From contig NC_134680.1 of the NCBI RefSeq assembly GCF_024713945.1, forward strand, positions 2,318,001-2,382,000: DNA of 64,000 nt, read 5' to 3'. Positions 13,571 through 54,490 of the stretch are shown here, in pieces (position 1 is the stretch's first letter; each line of letters opens with the position of its first letter). Origin of the DNA: Dermatophagoides farinae (lineage: Eukaryota > Arthropoda > Arachnida > Sarcoptiformes > Pyroglyphidae). Under the pieces are notes generated by a model. The model was not told the DNA's origin. It searched no databases and saw only the letters and a program-made list of their open reading frames with translations. The position numbers were made by a program, and so were the translations under genes.

Positions 13571-13814
13571 TAATCGATGATGATGATTTTGGACAATTTA
13601 ATTGATACGATCAAATTAAATGTTTTAAAATCAGTGATTCTAATGATAGAAATATTCAACAAATAAATTAATAATTAATAGAAAAACATTGAAAAATTTA
13701 TCTAATGATGATGATTCAATAATCGTTATACCACCACTACTACCACCGTCAACATTGTTTATCCATGAAGATAATAATAATTCTACAAGTGTATTATATT
13801 AATTAGCAGCAAAA

Positions 13815-29932
<16,118 letters not shown>

Positions 29933-32727: not shown

Positions 32728-34822
32728 TCATGTGTTGGATTGTGATGGCATTTCTGTAACATCATCTTCACCATCACCGCCATCATCAACATTGACATTA
32801 TTAGAATCATTTTTTGTCATCGAACATTTAGCCAATCTCCGATTTGATCGTCGAACATTATTTTTATTATTATTATTAGTAATATTGTTATTACGTCGTT
32901 GGAATGCCATCAACATTGTTTGTTGCTGTCGGCCCATCATTGTTAAACGATTTCGTAATAATTTTTCCGTTTCTTTCTGTTTATCCTGTTGTTTTTGACG
33001 ATCGAAATCATTGAATATTTCGAATATCTGCATAGATAGTTGACAACCTTTTTGTATTTGATCATTAATGATAGTTAAACTGGGTGAATTAGTTTTTTTC
33101 ATTTGATGATTATCATCAACATCTGATTGTTGTTGTTGTTGATCATCCAATGTGGAAAAATTTTTTTCAATCAATTTTGAAACATTTAAAAATTGGCGAA
33201 TTAAATCACTATTTTCAGCCAAATTTTGTCGTATAAAACGTAATCGTTCACGAATGATTGTAAATTTTGGTGATTGTTGTTGCAAAATTTTCCGAACACA
33301 ATGTCCACGCCACCAACTCTATACCATATCATTGCAATGAAGAATTGTAAATCATTAACAAAAGTTTTTGAGAAAAATAATTGGGCCATACCTGTATCGT
33401 TGTGACACATTGTTCACGTTTCAATTGAATCCTAGTTGGTGCTTTCTTTTCTTTCGGTAATTTCACTGCGGTTGTTGCCGACTTAGTTGGTACATATAAT
33501 TGATCATGTTTGAATTTATTTCGTCGAGTATTGAACCAATTCTAATCATTTCGATGATGTTGTGTGCATTGATGAATATTAATTGTCAAATTATTTGAGA
33601 AAAAAGGTTAAAAAATAATTTAAAATTTTTGATTACTACTCACTCGTATCCTTTGCTCGGTTGTATCTAATTTCTTAGCTAAATCTCGCCGTCGTTCATA
33701 ATCTAACCATGGATTTTCCTGAAATGTTCGTTCCAGAAATTCAACTTGTTCATCATTAAACGCCATCTGTTTGCTGCGATTACGATATTGTCGTCCTTTC
33801 TTTCGAAAATTTTCAATCATCTCTTTATTATCACTATGCTGTTGACACCATTTTTTTCGACGTCCATGGAACCATTCCTGTTTGTTTAAAATGATAAAGG
33901 TCTTTTAAAGAAAAAATTTGTTTCAACCAAATTTCTTACATTAATTTTCGGTGGAGCTAGATTCAATTTTTCCACCAATTCGGTTATTTTATCCGATGTT
34001 AGATATGGATTTTCATTGAAATATTCTTCCAAAATTGTCAATTGCATTTGTGTAAATTTTGTTCGTTCACCACGTATACGATCTAATGATGGGCGTGGTT
34101 GTCCAAGTTCTTGTTCACGATTGGCAGCCAAATGTGCTAAAATAGAAACAATAAATTATCATCAAATGGAAAATGATCAAACAATTCGGGACTACATACA
34201 ATACCATTCATTCAATGCAATCAGTTCATCATGTCGTTGTTGTCGCGGTAGTTCTAACCATTTTTTCAATCGTAAATATGATTGCATTTTTTCCGAATAT
34301 TGTTTCGGATGTTTTAACATCATAGACCATGGTCGTGGTTTTCGTAATAGATTAAACATTTTTGTCGAACCACAATGTAATATATGACGACCAAATAATT
34401 GTCGTTGAATATTCATTGTTTCCAATTCTTTATTCACTTGTTCAGCGATTGCAATAGTATCAATATCCATTGTTTCATTCATTTCTTGTTCGGTTACTAT
34501 TAAAATTGTTGATGTTGGTGGTCCCATCGGATGTTGTTCATTTTTTGTCAAATCAACATTCGAATCAATATTATTATCATAGGAATTTTGATTTTGGCCA
34601 CCAGCCGTTTGTACTTCGACAACATATGGTGGTGTTTGAAGCTTAAATCAGATTATATGAATTAATTTATTATTATTTTTAAAGTTAAAAATTAAACATT
34701 TTTGTTAATCTTACAGGTGAAAATTTTGGATCAACATTATTGTCGAAAATTTCGACAGCTGTCGATTGATGATAATGATGATCAGCTCCGGATGGATAAT
34801 AACGATTTGAACGTAGATTCAT
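32728..34822 (-). CDS. CUT domain + two homeodomains + IQ motif protein
   Basis: Putative nuclear DNA-binding protein of the CUT homeobox class, of unusual make-up. Exons (minus): 34822-34715, 34641-34200, 34136-33940, 33877-33644, 33541-33392 and 33318-32728. All have GT/AG sites and consistent phase, giving 573 residues; an in-frame TGA lies 33 nt upstream of the ATG. Residues about 99-172 form a CUT domain (RQLFGRHILHCG..., FNLLRKPRPWS, KMQSYL; compare the FG..VL..S.G..S.LL.RPKPW of CUT proteins). Homeodomain 1 spans 204-263 and homeodomain 2 spans 282-341, each 60 residues by F8/W48 spacing. Helix 3 reads WFHGRRKKW and WFNTRRNKF, so position 51 is Gly254 and Thr332 instead of Asn. IQSWWRGHCVRKIL (376-389) fits the calmodulin-binding IQ pattern exactly. 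The C-terminus is helical and charged, then Asn/Asp-rich. It matches no family layout I know (ONECUT, CUX, SATB, Dve). Expression unknown. Confidence 0.82.
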
Positions 34823-35772
34823 AATCAATAAATAATTCGATTCAAATTTAAATCATAACATTAGATATTTATCATTTTTTTTCGATAAAAAAAACATTGA
34901 ATTCAAATCCAATATCGAGTTTTTGTTTTGATGCATGTGTACATGAATAACGTTTATTATAGTAGCATACAAATTAGTTTCGTTTCTTCTTCTGGAACTG
35001 CCACTACCACAGCAGTACTTTGAATCCCGTTCATTTAGTACATATAATCAAGTTTCAAAATTTAAAAATTTAATTTAACAACAAAAAAAAAATTTAAAAC
35101 CCAACAAAATAAACAATTTTTTTTATTAATCTGATAATCATAAAACGTTTATTATAACACATGAATATAAAATTTAGAATATGAAAATCTGATTGTTTGA
35201 TACTTGAAACACAGTGCTAGACAACAATAGCAAAAAAAGGAAAAAAAAATTGTATCAACAATAACATTCCAGCATTCTAGCACCTGCAAGTAAAAAAATC
35301 CAAAACGAAATCCGAATCGCGTAGCCCAATAGACCGAAATTTTCTTTAGGAAAAAGAGAAAAAATATAAAGATTAAATAAAAAAAATCGAATAAGAAACT
35401 TTACCGGAATTTAAGAATAAAATTTCCAAGCCATAGACCAATGATGATATATATTATGATGATGATTCGAACCAATTAATAAATCATGAAACGAATCTTG
35501 ATCAAAAAAAAAAAATTGTCTTGCCAATATGATTGAATGAATGATGAATATTTTTTAAAATGTATCCCAAATGAATCAAGTATTGAATATATGAAAATTA
35601 AATATTATTTGTCCATCCAAAATAAACGAAACGAGACGAAAATATTAATCTTGATAATGAACAAATTCGATGAATGAATATACGATACACACATTTGAAT
35701 GGTTTTTTGATGTTTTAAATATTATTATCGAAATAGTAACGAAAAAAAACGACAGGAGTACCAAAATTATCT
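34823..35772. other. Intergenic, between two minus-strand genes
   Basis: About 950 bp of AT-rich sequence containing the presumed promoter of the CUT-homeodomain gene and the 3' end of the membrane-protein gene. No coding stretch recognised. Confidence 0.5.
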
Positions 35773-36681
35773 TCACTCTGAATGCTGACGAAGACGACGT
35801 CTTTTTATTACACCCATTAGCCAACCACTGAATCCTAATGTGAACAAATTCATCATGGCCATCCATGTTAGATTACGTTTGATAAACATTTTAATATTAG
35901 CTATCCATTGACGAAATAATGATCGTATCCGTGTGATAAACCAATTCCATGATCGTCGTGGAAATGTTATCGTTTTTATCGTATAGAACACTATTCTTGA
36001 CCAAATATATTGACATGTACGAACGAAAATATTTGTCGTTGTTTCCGTTGTTTCAACAATACGTTCGATTGCTGTTGCAGTTATATGTGCCGATTTAACC
36101 ATACTAATACCGACATGATTAACATCTTCTAATTGTCGAGTAACATTGATGACTGCTTGTCCGGCAATAATTTTTGCACCAATTGTTAATGCCAATATAT
36201 TGATCATAATGAACAATATGCATAATTGTCTTACGAATGCAAATGTTTGTATACGTAATAGACAATCACAAATGAATGCTATAACAGCCAATGCTAAACA
36301 TATGGTGAATATATCGATCAATGCCGTTACGATGGCCGTCAGACCACGTTCACGAACTTGACGATATTTTTCACGATTTTTCAGCAGATCATTTTCATCA
36401 TCATCATCATAATCATCATCACCAACATTATCATTAAATTCATCATTAATATTTTCATTATTCAATGTTCGATGTCTTAATAATTGTCTTCGATTTGGAA
36501 AAAATGATCCACGCCATATTAACCATAATAGATTCAATGCATGGCCAGCATTGTATAATGGACCCAATAATGGTACATAATCAATAAATACGATTAAACG
36601 TATGTAATATTTTTCCCAATTAGCCAATAATTGTGGCCCATTTCGTGTTAGGAATTGTTGTGACCAGGATAATTCCGACAT
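35773..36681 (-). CDS. Orphan multi-pass membrane protein, 302 residues
   Basis: Single uninterrupted frame from ATG 36681; function not recognised. Hydrophobic segments at about 28-57 (with YVPLLGPLYNAGHALNLLWLIWRG), 113-142, 148-175 and 272-293 suggest three or four membrane passes. Between the first two lies an acidic loop (84-97, mostly Asp/Glu/Asn). A long amphipathic, Thr-rich stretch (176-260) follows the third, and the C-terminus is basic (KRRRLRQ), an arrangement often seen at an ER or inner-membrane cytosolic tail. Codon-level coherence over 302 residues and a clean start support a real gene. It lies 0.95 kb from the CUT-homeodomain gene and 1.35 kb from a P450, all on the same strand. 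No family could be assigned by eye. Confidence 0.75.
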   Translation of the reverse strand: MSELSWSQQFLTRNGPQLLANWEKYYIRLIVFIDYVPLLGPLYNAGHALNLLWLIWRGSFFPNRRQLLRHRTLNNENINDEFNDNVGDDDYDDDDENDLLKNREKYRQVRERGLTAIVTALIDIFTICLALAVIAFICDCLLRIQTFAFVRQLCILFIMINILALTIGAKIIAGQAVINVTRQLEDVNHVGISMVKSAHITATAIERIVETTETTTNIFVRTCQYIWSRIVFYTIKTITFPRRSWNWFITRIRSLFRQWIANIKMFIKRNLTWMAMMNLFTLGFSGWLMGVIKRRRLRQHSE

Positions 36682-38026
36682 TTTTTTTTATTATTATTAT
36701 TCAACACACAAACAAACAATAACAAAGAATAAATCAAAACAAAAGAGAAAAGAGTATACACGGAAAAAGAAATTAATTTTCAATAAAATCGTATATATTT
36801 TTTTTTTGCGAATAAAATAAATTAAACATCGCACACGAACACACACACAAATGTATCAACATTTGTCAACCAAATAATGAATAATGAATAATAATAATGA
36901 TGATGATGATGATGATGATCGGACGCCATCAATGAATTATCAATAGAGATATTTTTTTTCTCACTATTCAGCTAGTTGGCTAAATAATCAACAAACAAAC
37001 AACCAGCCATAATACGTACCATCATCATATATTGATTTTATTTATTTGGCCAAACACACCAATGTACCAATGTAATAAACATGACTAAATTCATTTTCAG
37101 TTTTTCTTTCTTTCTATGTTGGTTGGACCAATGATCGTTACGTTATGATAATCGCTAAAGTCAACGACGATTGATGAATGATTGTTGATGCTGATGATTA
37201 TACTTTGAACATTATCAATTGTCATTGAAAATGATAAAATGAACATCTTTTTTTTGACACAAAAAAAAGATTTGTTTTTTCCTCTATTCGTCGTTGATTG
37301 TAGTCGTTTTATCAAGAATCTGAACTTTAGACATTGATCATCATCATCATCATAAACAAAATTTGGTTGTTGTTGTCAAATTATGTTGTTGTTTTTTTGT
37401 AATAATAATTAATTTGCCTATATTTTAGAATATATTGAACAATGAATCAATCAATCAATCAATCAAAAAAAATGGAAACAGAAGTACCTCTCAAACATTG
37501 GTAAATAATTATCACATCAATCTTCTTGTTAACAAATTTCATCATTTGATAATGAATAATCTTGCAAGAATGGCATCAATAAGAGTACATGCATGTTTTA
37601 TTGTGATGATGATTAGGTTCAAATTTTGATTCGATAACCGATGGATGGAGCCATGAAACATTTTGTTTGTGTGTGTGTATTGTGATGATATTCGATTTTC
37701 AAATCAAATAGTAGATTTTGTGAAAAACAATGAATCCTAAAAATTGAAGAAACAAGAAGAACTGATCGAAATAATTAATAACAAAGAATTTAAGGTACAG
37801 TAAAAATAAATTTTTCCGGTGATGAATGATCATTGATTTTTATTCTCAAAATAGTTACTTTAACAGCAACAATTATCATTGCTGTCATCGAATTTAATCA
37901 AATATAAATAAAAGTTTGATAAATATGCCAAAAATAAAAGTGCTTTTTTAATATAAAAAAAAACCGCTATTGATTGAAGAAAGGAGAAAAATATGATCAA
38001 GGTCACATTTGCAACAAACATCAACA
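36682..38026. other. Intergenic, no gene seen
   Basis: Contains the upstream region of the membrane-protein gene, an ATG run at 36898-36920 and poly-A/T tracts. Near 37437-37465 is a short (AATC)n string. No recognisable coding or RNA gene. Confidence 0.5.
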
Positions 38027-39788
38027 TTATCGTCTTTCAACTTTTAGAAAGATATCACGTGGAGAAAGAAGACCGCCTTGATTATAAAATTCAACTGGAA
38101 TCTAATCAAAAGAAAGCAATAGAAAAAAAAGAATATGATAAGTGGAAAAAAAACATCAATCAAGTACCAAACAGCATCACTTACTTTGGTTTTATCACAT
38201 TTATTGAATTTAAAATTTTTAATCAACCAAATCAATGCTAATTTTGCTTCCATCAATGCTAAACTTTTGGCAACACAAGCTCGTGGTCCAGATCCGAATG
38301 GTAGATAGGCATAATTTGGATATTTATGATCATTATCCGGACCGAATCGTTCGGGACAAAATTTTTCCGATTCAGGAAAATATTCTTCATTATAATGTAG
38401 ACACCATATAGGAATCTGTATGATATCATCTTTACGAATCGAAACCGAAAATTGACCATCTTCAGTGGAAAGCAAACAATCATTCATACAACGACGTTCA
38501 GTGAATGGCGCCGGTGGTGTCATACGTAACGTTTCATTAACAACACCATTAATATAATCGAATTTTTTACCTATAGTTTCAAATGATAATGATTGTAATT
38601 TGTCATCATTTTGTTGACCATTTTCAAATTCCGAAACAATTCGTTCAACTTCTTCATAAGCTAGCTGTTGTTTATCCGGATTCAGGGCAAGATAATATAA
38701 CGCCATTGTGATTGTCGTTGCCGTCGTATCATAACCGGCCAAAAAGAATAATACACATTGTGCAATGATTTCATCATTGTTCATATATTTGATTGCTTTT
38801 TTATCATTATCGCCATTTTCCAATGAAATATTATTATTCGTATTATTATCAATTTTCTGTTGTTGATTTTCCAATTCATGTTCAGCTTCAAGTAAAAATT
38901 CAAGGAATGTTGATGCTTTTGAAAAATCTTTCTTTGCAAATTCTTTTCGTTTACGTTCAATTAAATCGATTGCAAATTTTCCGAAAAAATCCGTTACATC
39001 GCCATTTATCCGTATATTGAATATCTTTGAAAAAAATGGTGGGAGAAAAAAAGCGAATACAAATGCAATAATGTTTTTCAATGATAAATCCGTATTGAAT
39101 AGTCGTCTGGCCATAACGATAATCTGATTATTCGGTTCGATTAATGAATCAATTTTACAACCAAATGCTACCTGTAGAACAGTGTCCATTGTGAATGCAC
39201 CGGCGAATCGTTTAATATTCAATATGCTGTCATTCGAATTAGCCAATTCATTATTAATATTCTGGATTAATGTCTGACAAATTGAATCCATACATGGTTT
39301 CATTCGGCGAAGTTTTCCAGTAGCAAATGTAGGCGCTACAATTGCTCGAATACGTTTCCATTTATCCAATTCGACTGTAGACAGAAAGTTAGAAAAGAAT
39401 GGATCATCGGTATTTAGTTTCTTCGAAAAAAAAATCAATTTAGCATTTAGAATATAAATTCTCAAATTATAATTCTTACTCGTCTATTAGGAAAATTGGT
39501 GAATTCTTTGCTCAATATTAATTGAATCAATTCGGGTTCAGCAATGGTCAAATTTATTCCTCCAAACATCTCCCATCCATAAACTTTACCAATCTTTTTT
39601 ATGTTTTCTTGAGATATCAATTCAATACGTATATTATTCAATAAAGCATTGAAAAATGATGGCTGCTTTCCCACAGGAATATTACGATTTTGTAGATTCG
39701 AAATTGCCATTCTCGATTTATGGCGAAAATAAAGAAAAATTGACGAAAACGTCAAAATGATAACAGTCAACAAGAATATTCCAAACAT
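38027..39788 (-). CDS. Cytochrome P450, CYP3-clan-like
   Basis: Haem-thiolate monooxygenase anchored in the ER membrane; likely oxidises lipophilic endogenous compounds or xenobiotics with electrons from P450 reductase. Exons 39788-39480, 39420-38185 and 38101-38027 (introns 59 and 83 bp, GT/AG, phase 0) give 539 residues. The N-terminal anchor is residues 1-20 (MFGIFLLTVIILTFSSIFLY). I-helix AGYDTT 331-336, K-helix ETLR 399-402, PERF 459-462, haem loop FGSGPRACVA from 478 with Cys485 as thiolate ligand. The C-terminal exon adds IPVEFYNQGGLLSPRDIFLK, similar to the end of CYP3A-type proteins. The usual Gly two residues after the Cys is Ala487, a change seen in some P450s. Length is slightly above the typical 500-520, partly from an Asn-rich loop near 290-305. 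The CYP family number is not assigned. Confidence 0.93.
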
Positions 39789-43244: not shown

Positions 43245-45946
43245 ATGTTTTGGAATAGCATTGATAAATTTTTTTGGACCTGTTTGGTATGTAAAAAATT
43301 ACAATTATTATAATCTGTTTACAATACTTCGTAAATTTTTTCTTTTCATTTAGAAATTTTTTTCTCCCGCTGAGAAAAATAACAAGACAGCAACAACCAA
43401 TAGAGATGAGTGGGACACCCCAGATTACCCAAATCCCATCTCTTACATTCCTCATAATAATTATACTGTATCAAACCAAAACCATTATGATGATGAATTT
43501 AAGCCAGATTTATCATCTGAATTTAAACCAGATGATAATGTTAAAAAATCACACTATAGACATTTACTTGACATTAAATGTCAATCAATGCCTATGCCGA
43601 GTTATCTATTGATCGATCTTGAATTGGAAAATAACTATGGATATGAATCCCGACCTTCTAAGCAAAAACTCCTCTCATTTTTCCATGAATTTAATGAATT
43701 TAATGATAAAATGTTCAAAAATGGCATTAATATTCTGTTATTACCAATATTGTCGATTGATTGGACCGTTTTTATTACTAAGTCAAACCAAGACCAAAGT
43801 GGTGAAGAATTTTACTTTCATTGTATTGAACAAAGTTGTCGTGAACTAATTCCTTTGTTAAAATCTGATATTAAATTACAATACGATTGCATCAGTCATT
43901 ATAAATATTCAAACATGGCAATGATCATCATCAATACGATGGCTCAAATCGAAAAGGAAATGACTACAAAATTACCTAATGACTATCTCAACATGAGTTT
44001 GCTTACATCAACCATCAATCATAATTCACATCTAGTCCATGTAATATTCGATTGTCGATTGTCACGTGAAGCAATCTTTGAGAAGAGACGGAAATTCATT
44101 AATCATATTGTTAGTATTCGTCTCAATGGAGATGCCAATTCGGATTCCTACTTGTTAAATATAGGATACATCGCCAATTCTGTATGGGACATACCTAGAC
44201 GCCATAGTACAGGTAGATTGTTTTTCTCGGTAATCATGACTTCGTCCTTTCATCAAAAGTTATCACGTTTTTCAAACAAAGAATGGATAATCAAGCCGTT
44301 ATTTTATTTGCGACCTGCTGTTCGATTAATCGAAACGCTTGCCTATTTAGAGCAGTATCGATCCCAATCGTTTCAATCGCTCATTCGTCTAGATCCGAAT
44401 CTTTGTCATAATCAAAATAAAATAATGACATTGGCGTGTAAACCATTACATAACCAGAAACAATATAATGAGAAGCAACAGGCTGCCATTGTAGCAGCAT
44501 GTGACCTTATCAATTTATCAACATCAACACTCCGAATTCTTATGGTACAAGGTCCCCCTGGCACCGGTAAGACTCACATATTGCTTGGCATCATCAGGAA
44601 TATCATGGCTGACTCAATAACCAAGTTTCAAATGGTTCCATTTCGCATCATGATTTGTGCGCCAAGCAATGGTGCTATCGATGAAATTGGACTGCGAATA
44701 GCTTCTGAGAAAACACAATTACTTCATGGCCGATTGATTAAAATGGTACGAATAGGAATGAAATCACGAATGCACACAGATTTGGTCCAATATGAACTGG
44801 AAACAATGATCGATGCTGTTCTTGGCGAAGAAGAAAAGAAACTCGGTTATAAACGTGCCAGTGTACGCCAAGAAATCATATCCAATGCTGACATCATTCT
44901 GACAACATTGTCAAGTTGCCAAAATTCAGCACTTGACATATTTCGATCCACTAAACAAGAAACAATACGCATAAGCAATAACGTTATAAACTGTCTCATC
45001 ATTGATGAAGCCTCACAATGTATAGAGCCAGAAATCCTTATGCCTTTAGTTTATGAATCCATAACAAAAGTGATTATGATCGGTGATCCATTGCAATTAC
45101 CTGCAACAGTCATATCTAGTACGGCTAAAAATGCCAATTATGGTCGCTCTTTGTTCGAACGTTTCGACACGTATTTCAGTGATATCAAAAGTGATAAACA
45201 ATCGCCAATCATACGTCTTACGCAACAGTTTCGTATGCACAAGGATATTTGTTCCTTTCCATCGAAACAATTTTATAATTCCACATTAGAAACCGCTAAC
45301 GGTAGCGGTTTTCATACCTCTGTCACAATTAATCCATACTTTATTTTCGACATTCTTGACTCACAAGAATCCAGCTCTCAAAGTTCTAAATCAAATCCAA
45401 CTGAAGTGATGTTTATATGCAAACTATTTCGTCAAATACTCGACAAAATTTGCTATAAACCATGGCAGCCTCTTCCGGCTTCTATCGGTATTATAACATT
45501 CTATCAGGAGCAGAAACAAGCTCTTATCGCGGAATTATCAGAGCAATTCAGCTCTGAATTGGTAAACATTATCAAGATAGACACAGTGGACGCATTTCAG
45601 GGACAAGAATGTGATATTGTCATCTTATCCTGTGTTCGAGCCCCTGACGACAAAGGCCGTTTCGGATCGATTGGTTTCGTACGTAGCCAACAACGAATGA
45701 ATGTAGCATTAACTAGGGCTCGTTGTTTGCTGTGTGTCTGTTTGCATAGCAGAACATTTTCACGAGCACCAATTTGGAAACAAATGCTATTGGATGCCGA
45801 ACAACGTAATCGATTGTTTTCGGTTTCATCTAAAATTCAAGATTCCGCACTCAAGGTATATTTGTTAAATTATTCTATCATTTTTTTTAAATTTAATTAA
45901 ATTGTTTTTCATTTTTTTTTTAAATATCTAGTCAATGCTTGTCTAA
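43245..45946 (+). CDS. Sen1/senataxin-like superfamily 1 RNA/DNA helicase
   Basis: ATP-dependent 5'-3' helicase of the Upf1/Sen1 type; relatives resolve R-loops and act in transcription termination. Exons 43245-43286 (14 codons), 43354-45855 and 45932-45946 (SMLV-stop) give 852 residues. Motifs: Q-like NEKQQAAI, Walker A GPPGTGKT (414-421), CAPSNGAIDE (Ia), Walker B DEAS (565-568), GDPLQLPATV (III), QQFRMH (639-643), DTVDAFQGQE (757-766) and NVALTRAR with the arginine finger (797-804). DEASQ plus LPATVIS and AFQGQE favour the senataxin branch over UPF1 or IGHMBP2. The protein is far shorter than vertebrate senataxin and lacks the long N-terminal region; residues 1-270 are unassigned. The short first and last exons are inferred from splice sites and phase; the main exon is certain. 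Confidence 0.9.
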
Positions 45947-46037: not shown

Positions 46038-46486
46038 TAAAATGATGATTTTTAATTTTAATTTCTTTCACTGAATAATTTAAAATTTTCGTCGTCAGAT
46101 ATCGCCACATACAAATTGATAACTAAATTTTAGGCTACATATGTTGTTTTGATTTTCATCTGATCAACATTGATATTTACGACAATCACATCATACTTTT
46201 TTTTATCATTTATTTTGTTCATTACATTCATACAGGAATTTATCTTTTCCCTCTTTATATCTTCTTGAATTTTGTTCAACCTATATGTAACCGTTGTGAT
46301 GATAAATAAATTTCATTATTATTATACAAAAAGAAATTATGACTCACTGAGGATATAAATTTTGTATGGCTAAATAATAACTCAATTGTTTCTATTGAAT
46401 CTGAGTACCTAAAATCTTTCGATAATTTCTCATCATTTTTTCCCTTATAAATTGTGAATGCAGATTTGATTGATATAGCATTCATT

Positions 46487-48742
46487 ATGGCACAGCCGAA
46501 TAAACAATCGAATGAATCATTGAACAAGAATCAATCCGATTCCATATTGTTGAATCAAACGAATTTAGCTTGGTCACAACCAGCTGGATTTATGTTGGCA
46601 TCACCTGCACCAGCTTCTCAACCATCACAATCGACGATGGCTACATTGGCCAATGATCAATTATTAACCACCACAGAGTCTACCGTCGATGTACAGACGA
46701 CGATGCAGGAAACACAAGAAAGTCCACCTGCTACGAATACCAGCACTGTCGAATCGTCAATTGAATCATATTTCAAATCTGAAACTTCGCAACCTGAACC
46801 ATCAGAATTATCAAATCCAACACCACAATCAGCAACAACACCGGAACCCGAAACTTATAAAGAAGTTGATCATCATTGGTTTTATCAAAAAAATCCGGAA
46901 AATAATCCCGATGATTGGCAGGCATTTTCAATGTTGGACAGCTATCAATTAGAAAATGCATTTCAACAATGTCGTATGGATGAGCTGATTCCTACGAATG
47001 GTACACGATATGATGTTCGCATACGAGATCGATTACGTTGTCCGGTTTATTGGCAAGGTTCGTCAAGTATGGTTTCTCGTTGTTCATGGTTTTATAAACG
47101 TGAAACCGACTATCGTTATGTACCATATCCGGAATATATTGCCGAAATGTTGGAAGCTACATATCGGTTAGTATGAATTTCATAATAATTATCATAATTG
47201 AAATTATTCTCAAAAATCTATAGAGATTGTTTCTTAACACATCAATGGAATCGTCGATTAGATCTAACCGATACGGAATTTGTTGTTTTCTATGCTCATA
47301 ATTCCGTATATCATTATTTTAATGATCCAGTTCAATCATCACCATCGACTGGTTGGCAAACATTGATGACATCTGATCCAGGATCACAGCCTCGTTATTG
47401 TTACCGTGGACCATGGATGATTCAAACACAACCGGAACGTGATGAATCGGCCACGTCCGTGACACATTTAATCTTTTTCGTTCATGGTATCGGTGAATTT
47501 TGTGATTTCAGTTTTCGACCATTGAAAGATGTTGTCGATGATTTTCGTATGATCACTCATGATCTATTGCTTACACATTATGGTCATGAACAAGGTCGTG
47601 TTGAAGTATTGCCAGTTACTTGGCATCAAGCATTGCATACAAAATCTTTGGATGAACGTCTTCGTGAGATTACCTTACCATCGATTCAAAAGTTACGTTC
47701 ATTCACAAACGATACGATTCTTGATGCATTGTTCTATACATCACCTGTACATTCGAAATTACTATTGAATTATGTTGCCAATGAACTTAATCGATTGTTT
47801 GCGATCTTCCTCCAACGAAATCCATATTTTGGTGGTAGAATTGCCTTGGCTGGACATTCGCTCGGTTCGTTGATCTTATTCGATTTATTATCATATCAAA
47901 CACCACCAACTTCAGCCAGTAACGAGCCACAACAATCACAAGATGATCATCATAATACTGAACATTCAAATCAAATTGAACAACTTCATTTCAGACCTGA
48001 ATGCCTTTTTGCATTGGGTTCACCATTAGCCGCATTCATTACGATTCGTGGTTTGGATTTGGCACCGGATTTTCGTTTACCCACATGTCCGGCATTTTTC
48101 AATATATTTCATCCCTATGATCCAATTGCTTATCGTTTGGAACCGTTGATTAATCGAGAATTTGCCAAAATTAAACCAGTACTCGTTCCACATCATAAAG
48201 GCCGTAAACGATTCCATCTGGAACTAAAAGATTCATTACAAAGAGTCGGTACTGATTTGAAACAGAAATTTATGTCCGGAATACGAGGCGCATTAGATTC
48301 ATTGTATGGTTTCGCTAAAGCTCACGTTGAAGAACCAACAGCGGAAATTCAACAACAACAGCAGCATGTACAATTACAAACTCACACATCAATGGATAAT
48401 ATAGAAATAAAACGAGAACAACCGGAAATTGTTAATCAACAGCCACAACAGCTACAAGAGCCATCATTACCATCATCAACATCGATAACAAATTCATTAT
48501 CCGAATTAGCCATAAAACCCGATATGACGGAAACTGAATTGAATCGAATTTTATCATTGGATTTTGGTCAATTAAATCGTGGACGTCGTTTAGATTATGT
48601 ATTACAGGAAAGGCCATTTGAAATTGTCAATGAATATGTATTTGCCATTACATCACATGGTTATTATTGGTTTTCCGAAGATACGGCATTATTAATGTTA
48701 CGTGAATTATTTGGTCAACCACCACAATCAAATACTGTGTAA
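46487..48742 (+). CDS. DDHD-type phosphatidic acid-preferring phospholipase A1
   Basis: Intracellular PLA1 of the DDHD1/DDHD2/SEC23IP family, which hydrolyses phosphatidic acid and related lipids at ER/Golgi membranes and can act as a lipid-droplet lipase. Exons 46487-47166 and 47224-48742 (57-bp intron, phase 2) give 732 residues. Order: Ser/Thr/Gln/Pro-rich linker (1-128); WWE-like domain (129-227: HHWFYQ, W..FSMLDSYQLENAF, RYDVRIRDRLRCPVYW, SWFYKRETDYRYVPY); lipase core with FVHGIGE and the nucleophile motif GHSLGS (437-442, Ser439); DDHD domain from about 480 (FALGSPLAAF, FNIFHPYDPIAYRLEPL) to the C-terminal DYVLQERP...ITSHGYYWFSEDTALLML. The linker inside the DDHD region (about 565-645) is Gln-rich. 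Closest in pattern to DDHD2. The first in-frame ATG is at 46487; only a GTG lies further up. Confidence 0.93.
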
Positions 48743-53265: not shown

Positions 53266-54490
53266 TCAAACGGAACGTTTACCCAGACCAAATGAATAAC
53301 GACGTTTGATGAAATCTTCGAAATTTGTTAGTTTTTTAATTTTTTTACCATTAATTTTTTGTTTGTTATTATAATTTTCATTATAATTGGTTATCATTCG
53401 TTTACCAAGTCCAAATCCATATGGTTGTATTTTTCGTTTTTCAGCTACATTCATCAAAACATCATCACCATTATCAATTGTTTGATCATTATTATCATCA
53501 TCAATAATATCATTGAACATAACCTGTTCTTTCGAACGTTTACCTAGTCCAAATGAAAATCGTTGTGGTCGTGAACGTTTAGTGGAATCAATAAATGAAA
53601 CAGACATTGGTATGAATGGTTTTTGTAATGCCGGTGCAAATGCTGGTATAACACGGAATTCAAAATCATTACCATCTTGATTGGTGGCAGATGATAATGT
53701 CGATGATGATGATTCTACATCATTAGCAATATTTGCCATATTTGGGTAATAGTATGATTGTAGATCTTGGATATTTGATGATGATGTGGGATTTTCAAAA
53801 AAATTCAATGATGACGATGGAACGATTTCAATGATTTCAGCCATATCAGATCTATATGGTGTACGTTTACCAAGACCAAAATTATATTGCATTCGCTGAT
53901 TGGCTCGTTTTTCAGCTAAAATTATTATTAATTATAAAACCATTAATTAAAAAAGATAAATAAAAACGACAAAAGCGAAAGAAAATATAACAATTATTGA
54001 AGAATAAACCAAATCCAAAAAATGACAAAAAAAAGAATATTAAAAACAAAAATAATTGAAATTGATCAGAAATGAAATGTTAAAACAAACAAACAAACAA
54101 ACCTAATAATGATGATGATAATGGTGATGGAATGAACGATGCCGACATTGGTGGTGGTACCAACAATGATGATGATGCGGCTGAAATTTGTGCTTGTTGC
54201 TGCTGCTGTTGTTGTTGTTGTTGTCCATTATTATTATTACGAATTGATGATGATGATGATGATGGCAATTGTTGTTGTTGTTGTTTATGTTTCAATGATG
54301 ATGATGATGAGAATGGTGTTAACATATTTGCCAATGAACATCCAATGAATAATGTTACAAACAATATGGACATTGTTATCGGATGATAATGATGATGATA
54401 AGAATAATTGGATGACATTGGAATGATTGATTGATGTTTTTGTTTATTATTATTATTATTATTATTATTGTTGATACTTAATTGATACAT
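53266..54490 (-). CDS. AstA: Allatostatin-A (FGL-amide) neuropeptide precursor
   Basis: Prepro-neuropeptide processed in neurosecretory or gut endocrine cells to C-terminally amidated FGLa peptides acting on galanin-like GPCRs. Exons 54490-54103 and 53915-53266 (187-bp intron, phase 1) give 345 residues from the first ATG. Four peptides, each followed by Gly-Lys-Arg (Gly gives the amide) and preceded by Lys-Arg: ANQRMQYNFGL, SRPQRFSFGL, KIQPYGFGL and RYSFGL. The spacer between the first two is long (about 97 residues) and acidic. The signal peptide MSILFVTLFIGCSLA begins at Met40 (ATG 54373), after a poly-Asn/His leader; translation may therefore start there, giving 306 residues. Between signal and first peptide is a Ser- and Gln-rich region with a Q10 run. 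Number and spacing are modest compared with insect precursors, which often have more copies. Confidence 0.93.

Follow-up and report, generated by a model that had tools for sequence, protein, structure and literature searches.

The window, a stretch of 64,000 nucleotides of the Dermatophagoides farinae genome (C4:2318001-2382000), carries on its minus strand, from 34822 to 32728, a predicted gene in which one CUT domain, two homeodomains, an IQ motif and a helical tail follow one another. Spliced in silico, the window DNA yields six exons that form a 573-codon open frame ending in a stop. The five introns between them, 62 to 102 bases long, all have GT-AG ends, and each contains at least one stop when read through. 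The phases of exons 1 to 6 are 0-0, 0-1, 1-0, 0-0, 0-0 and 0-0, exon 4 being symmetric, and an in-frame stop lies upstream of the start codon (stop-to-stop frame 34685-34852). This is the frame of 573 residues that an earlier, sequence-only reading of the same DNA had proposed, and both the splice check and the Pfam profiles bear it out as a predicted gene. Its features are as follows.

34822-34715, minus strand: exon 1, residues 1-36, start codon at 34822, donor GTAAG
34641-34200, minus strand: exon 2, N-terminal region and the entire CUT domain, phase 1 at its end
34467-34231, minus strand: CUT domain, residues 95-173 (Pfam PF02376, 49.5 bits), ONECUT-like
34136-33940, minus strand: exon 3, linker and helices 1-2 of homeodomain 1 (HD1)
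34074-33940 plus 33877-33842, minus strand: HD1 (Pfam, 58.4 bits alone)
33877-33644, minus strand: exon 4, helix 3 of HD1, linker, helices 1-2 of homeodomain 2 (HD2)
33778-33644 plus 33541-33506, minus strand: HD2 (Pfam, 48.9 bits alone)
33541-33392, minus strand: exon 5, helix 3 of HD2, basic linker, first residues of the IQ motif
33412-33392 plus 33318-33286, minus strand: IQ motif IQSWWRGHCVRK, residues 371-388 (Pfam PF00612, 20.9 bits)
33318-32728, minus strand: exon 6, remainder of the IQ motif, conserved helical tail, C-terminus, stop
33270-32830, minus strand: helical tail after the IQ motif, helices predicted at exon-6 residues 17-35, 37-66 and 81-163

Several other candidate genes share the window. 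Upstream of the CUT gene lies an open frame of 304 aa (35773-36687, minus) whose best Pfam match is below cut-off, and a cytochrome P450 occupies one long open frame at 38044-39483 (minus). On the plus strand, a C1 domain (13803-14495) and a C2 domain with a protein kinase (27491-28750) perhaps belong to one conventional protein kinase C gene. An 848-aa AAA_11/AAA_12 helicase-like frame, which we take to be UPF1/SEN1-like, spans 43354-45900 (plus), and a pair of frames at 46451-48742 (plus) includes a DDHD domain in 47198-48742. An open frame with several FGLGKR repeats at 53266-53931 (minus) matches the Pfam Allatostatin profile (35.7 bits; cut-off, 33.5) as a neuropeptide precursor, presumably of the A-like type.

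On the joined protein, the CUT, Homeodomain and IQ profiles all score above their Pfam cut-offs (24.4, 22.9 and 20.3 bits, respectively), the IQ only just. The assignment of the first block to the CUT family is thus upheld, with 49.5 bits against the 24.4 of the cut-off. Together the homeodomains reach 87 bits in two stretches, and they are identical to each other at 19 of 58 residues. Neither ULD nor CG-1 gives a Pfam match in the window protein. Modeled alone, the CUT exon piece is predicted to form five helices at low confidence (pLDDT 66.5); this is consistent with a CUT domain without being proof of one.

IQ motifs follow the consensus IQxxxRGxxxR. The 20.9 bits of the window motif were obtained on the full protein; when only three residues precede the motif, in a shorter piece, the score is 19.0 bits, below the cut-off. 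Since 118 of 20,000 shuffles of the window protein yield the strict pattern, the motif taken alone is modest evidence.

Stronger evidence comes from a second gene. Genome-wide searches covered the D. farinae assembly of 22 contigs and 62,435,336 bases. After the self-match, the 573-aa query finds C4:3700860-3701117 (CUT, 40%) and C4:3701241-3701429 (IQ motif and start of the tail, 52%), which belong to a two-exon paralog of 430 aa at C4:3700429-3701774 (L014, L053), 1.35 Mb from the window gene. Its CUT domain, IQ motif and tail all lie in the same 405-aa open frame, in one exon, to which a GT-AG intron joins a short 5' exon to give the 430-aa predicted protein. Both genes are compact, at 2.1 kb in the window and 1.3 kb for the paralog. 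Pfam scores the paralog at 60 bits for CUT and 28.2 bits for IQ, so that the consensus stands over its cut-off in both proteins, and finds no homeodomain in the paralog protein. Within 300 kb of the paralog there is likewise none of the genome's 125 homeodomain matches, the nearest on that contig being about 300 kb off; only about 42 residues separate its CUT domain from its IQ motif.

With BLASTP, the two proteins align over the CUT domain (E 8e-16, 34 of 84 residues identical) and over the IQ motif and tail (E 1e-13, 39 of 115). The paralog IQ is the fifth best among the 35 genome IQ matches listed, a list that does not include the intron-split motif of the window gene. Genome searches with either protein match the tail solely at these two genes. 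One further match, C9:2176088 (query 286-513, E 0.047), consists of a homeodomain and then a stretch containing stops. As far as these searches see, the combination of CUT domain, IQ motif and tail appears to be a family of two members in this genome.

The paralog also bears on the gene model. The sequence-only reading had argued that an IQ motif straddling the exon 5/6 junction speaks against a wrong join of two genes; that argument is sound but thin, and the paralog is a much stronger one. Because the CUT domain, IQ motif and tail of the paralog sit in one exon, the exon 5/6 join is supported without any splice model, and in the predicted window gene it is confirmed by a relative that lacks any junction there. 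By the same alignment across the junction, the IQ motif of the window protein, as predicted, is taken as settled. The proposal that a single gene combines one CUT domain, two homeodomains and an IQ motif therefore stands, given that the paralog, devoid of homeodomains, has CUT and IQ together in a single exon. We also considered a transcript skipping exons 3 to 5 as the source of the paralog layout and rejected it, since these exons total 581 bases and their removal would break the frame.

The tail has its own conserved features. Two stretches after the IQ motif are common to both proteins, FxIIRxRLRFIxQ and RQFLxxSxxIE ... LSxxIFEIxN. In an AlphaFold2 model made from the single sequence of exon 6, helices account for most of the chain as far as residue 163 (mean pLDDT 73.9, pTM 0.42), and a long predicted helix covers exon-6 residues 81-163, with pLDDT block means of 83-91 over residues 81-150. 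Searches of the window tail against Pfam and PDB sequences, and of the paralog tail against the PDB, gave no credible relative.

To place the CUT domain, we used an unrooted tree of ten rows. The window and paralog CUTs cluster (96/93), and the five rows made up of these two and the ONECUTs are split from CUX (98/97), with the window CUT on a long branch. The CUT phylogeny that the sequence-only reading had suggested thus sets the window CUT on the ONECUT side. Against PDB sequences, the window CUT is about equally near to ONECUT2 (31 bits) and Cux-2 (30 bits); the paralog CUT scores 43 bits with HNF6 and 25 bits with Cux-2. The tree, although unrooted, and the paralog score suggest that the CUT-IQ family descended from ONECUT.

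Descent from ONECUT raises the question of DNA reading. Passages of an ONECUT2 study (PMC11490551) give as base contacts S364, Q365 and D370 in the CUT domain and N476 (N51 in homeodomain numbering), R479 and R480 in the homeodomain. As reported there, binding is weaker and dissociation six to seven times faster for the S364A/Q365A and N476A mutants (0.0036 per second for the S364/Q365 mutant and 0.0030 for the N476 mutant, versus 0.0005), and neither mutant suppresses or upregulates the tested genes as the wild type does; the exception is KLK3, on which the N476 mutant had a stronger, opposite effect (PMC11490551). In gap-free alignments, the positions of S364, Q365 and D370 are occupied by G, S and N in the window CUT and by S, R and R in the paralog CUT. 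The SQG motif is kept in all four CUTs compared from the ONECUT (one) and CUX (three) of this genome. Helix 3 of HD1 reads WFHGRR, with N51 replaced by G and with R5, W48, F49, R53 and K55 kept; that of HD2 reads WFNTRR, with N51 replaced by T, R5 by Q, and W48, F49 and R53 kept.

We read all 125 homeodomain matches of the genome at this position. N51 is present in 68 of the 69 other homeodomain stretches covering position 51, a count with a bias, since a short helix-3 exon that lacks N51 more easily escapes matching, those of the window gene itself being absent from the list. In the sole exception, L046 (C1:6093713-6093868), a GTAAGA donor interrupts the match at residue 51, and an exon with NRRNKWKR lies downstream, beyond a stop-containing stretch; N51 is very probably present in that next exon. 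The intron of L046 apparently falls just before N51 (WFQ/NRRNKW), unlike the place between positions 46 and 47 described below. With the CUT base readers and N51 of both homeodomains replaced, it is less likely that the window protein is a conventional factor of the ONECUT kind.

Both homeodomains of the window gene are interrupted behind homeodomain position 46 by an intron in phase 0 (KIN/EWF in HD1, RIR/NWF in HD2). Among the 64 own-genome homeodomain rows that reach this place, 22 end in a GT codon resembling the same donor (window HD2, four LIM-like rows, 13 of 16 in the PRD-like clade, the ANTP-like L077, L081 and L087, and L096, all class labels being our own assumption), a count in which window HD1 is missing, its match ending one residue earlier, and in which the GT codon of L047 and L096 may be a plain valine before tryptophan and the donor of L077 may sit a codon or two before this place. 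The ONECUT and CUX homeodomains of the genome are unbroken at 46/47. The position of the intron thus points to homeodomains from outside the CUT class, not to any one class.

Ranked by nearness among the 69 others, ONECUT is 61st and CUX 43rd for HD1, and they are 54th and 36th for HD2. A homeodomain tree of 70 rows and 46 columns leaves both HD1 and HD2 unplaced. On the same 46 columns, AU tests do not reject a grouping of HD1 with HD2 (p 0.21), nor one of HD1 (p 0.31) or HD2 (p 0.33) with ONECUT and CUX.

One origin that may be entertained, with more doubt than confidence, is that homeodomains from outside the CUT class were captured or exon-shuffled between the CUT domain and the IQ motif and doubled by means of exon 4, the homeodomain-less paralog representing the older CUT-IQ state. 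Such an origin would be compatible with each of the mechanisms considered below. It draws on the shared 46/47 phase-0 intron, frequent in non-CUT homeodomains of this genome and absent from ONECUT and CUX, on the ranking of HD1 and HD2 nearer to many non-CUT homeodomains than to either of those, and on the symmetry of exon 4, since a symmetric exon inserted at the 46/47 intron of a single homeodomain would by itself yield two. Yet the AU tests reject neither the joining of HD1 or HD2 to ONECUT and CUX nor that of HD1 to HD2; the intron position is shared by more than one homeodomain class; long branches lead to ONECUT, HD1 and HD2 alike; and ONECUT itself consists of a CUT domain followed by a homeodomain, so that loss of the homeodomain in the paralog is equally possible.

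As to function, the reading we prefer, while judging it somewhat short of probable, is that the window gene is one of two mite CUT-IQ genes derived from ONECUT, coupled to calmodulin or a light chain and no longer engaged in DNA reading of the ONECUT type. The protein would be nuclear, and its CUT and homeodomain half would lack ONECUT-type sequence specificity, the CUT and homeodomain folds making weak, backbone-level contacts with DNA or serving as surfaces for protein contacts. The IQ motif would hold calmodulin or a related light chain and so stiffen or position the helical tail, possibly a dimerization rod, which together with the DNA- or protein-binding half would respond to Ca2+/calmodulin. 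Through the common IQ-tail half, the homeodomain-less paralog could act as partner or competitor. IQ motifs in a transcription factor have a precedent, since those of CAMTA are, in the text of PMC8428840, thought to bind calmodulin. The IQ of the window protein is barely above cut-off, and a lone motif of this kind may be constitutively occupied by a light chain instead of sensing Ca2+.

A new specificity would also be compatible with losing the ONECUT base readers, HD1 having kept R5, R53 and K55. An unlikely but serious alternative is a working sequence-specific transcription factor whose base readers were replaced after the ONECUT duplication, its CUT domain and two homeodomains reading an unusual long site and calmodulin modulating the binding. 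The CUT and both homeodomain scores lie well above cut-off, W48, F49 and R53 are kept in both homeodomains and R5 in HD1, and joint binding by CUT and homeodomain or by two CUTs is described for ONECUT2 and CUX1 in passages of PMC11490551 and PMC10515288. However, every one of the three base readers in the CUT domain is changed together with N51 in each homeodomain, and N51 is otherwise universal in the covering stretches of this genome.

We consider it rather improbable that the protein is an IQ-and-coil scaffold, bound to a light chain or the cytoskeleton and outside DNA regulation, with the CUT and homeodomain folds as structural or protein-binding modules. The IQ motif with its long predicted helical tail, the replaced DNA-reading residues and a paralog without any homeodomain would all suit such a scaffold; the basic residues that helix 3 retains in each homeodomain and the preserved CUT score do not. 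Finally, although the window gene is known here from genomic sequence alone, there is very little likelihood that it is an artefact, whether a pseudogene or two adjoining genes wrongly joined, because all six exons are open with GT-AG at every intron, the homeodomain core residues are kept, and the single open exon with CUT and IQ in the paralog, by which we reject a wrong join, means that the two flank the homeodomain block in one gene.

Building on the preferred reading of a calmodulin- or light-chain-coupled protein, a wider proposal, which we offer with considerable reserve, is that a separate CUT subclass, CUT-IQ, has its first members in the window gene and the paralog. In this subclass the CUT domain would be permanently coupled to a calmodulin- or light-chain-binding lever and rod, homeodomains would form a cassette that is optional, and base reading would have been given up. 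If true, CUT-IQ would be made of transcription-factor parts but serve as an architectural or partner protein that responds to calcium. It would show a developmental regulator rebuilt into something else, with an IQ motif added, homeodomains doubled or lost, and base readers replaced.

How does this arrangement compare with known factors? Passages of two reviews list CUX, ONECUT, SATB and COMPASS as CUT-class families and mention amphioxus Acut as a further CUT-class gene of "unique domain structure" (PMC10515288, PMC4901127). The claim that the layout fits no known CUT-class family agrees with the layouts given in these passages (PMC10515288, PMC4901127), Acut being compared by mention only. 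A literature search over titles, abstracts and passages, most subscription papers lying outside its reach, found no description of a gene with a CUT domain, two homeodomains and an IQ motif. By its predicted layout, then, the window gene would be a new variant of the CUT class relative to the families in these passages and to Acut as mentioned there. As an identity for it, ONECUT, CUX, SATB, COMPASS/Dve and CAMTA were each rejected for failing at least one defining feature.

The ONECUT proteins (HNF6/ONECUT1-3; Drosophila onecut) come nearest, with one CUT domain and then a homeodomain, a CUT that groups with that of the window gene in the tree, and an extension after the CUT (KKWL.P...R) that CUT-IQ proteins also have. 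The window protein differs in having two homeodomains, in W48 rather than F48 and in H50 (HD1) or N50 (HD2) rather than M50, in lacking N51 and the CUT base readers, and in the added IQ motif and tail; F48 and M50 are given as ONECUT marks in passages of PMC10515288 and PMC4901127, respectively. ONECUT marks occur at a separate locus (CUT at C9:1891568; homeodomain with FFMN at C9:1865187), which, like the CUX, COMPASS and CAMTA loci below, was seen exon by exon rather than as a full gene model. CUX/Cut is of the CUT class as well, but has three CUTs and one homeodomain where the window gene has one and two; the CUX-marked locus, with three CUTs and a homeodomain with WFHN, lies apart at C7:3288342-3291211.

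COMPASS/Dve likewise has two homeodomains in one CUT-class gene. It differs in its CMP/ULD domain, the lack of a CUT and a 10-residue homeodomain insertion, whereas the window homeodomains match the profile without insertion; COMPASS-like pieces lie separately within C3:3678294-3713362 (ULD at 3678294 and 3705549, inserted homeodomains at 3712233 and 3713195). SATB shares the CUT domain and homeodomain but consists of CMP, CUT-like, two CUTs and one homeodomain, and it is described as vertebrate-only in the text of PMC10515288. CAMTA is alike in being a transcription factor that carries IQ motifs, considered to be calmodulin-binding, and in C. elegans abundant calmodulin is suggested to repress its own promoter via these motifs, according to passages of PMC8428840; the CAMTA CG-1, TIG and ankyrin domains set it apart, as does the lack of CUT and homeodomain, and the CG-1 match that marks it is elsewhere, at C3:176375. 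Tandem homeodomains are also a feature of Caenorhabditis HOCHOB and of DUX4, for which the relevant passage of PMC4901127 mentions no CUT or IQ; the similarity to DUX4 in our PDB search is a generic two-homeodomain match. The doubling itself has parallels, in that lineage-specific double homeodomains are known to arise anew, as HOCHOB illustrates in that passage (PMC4901127).
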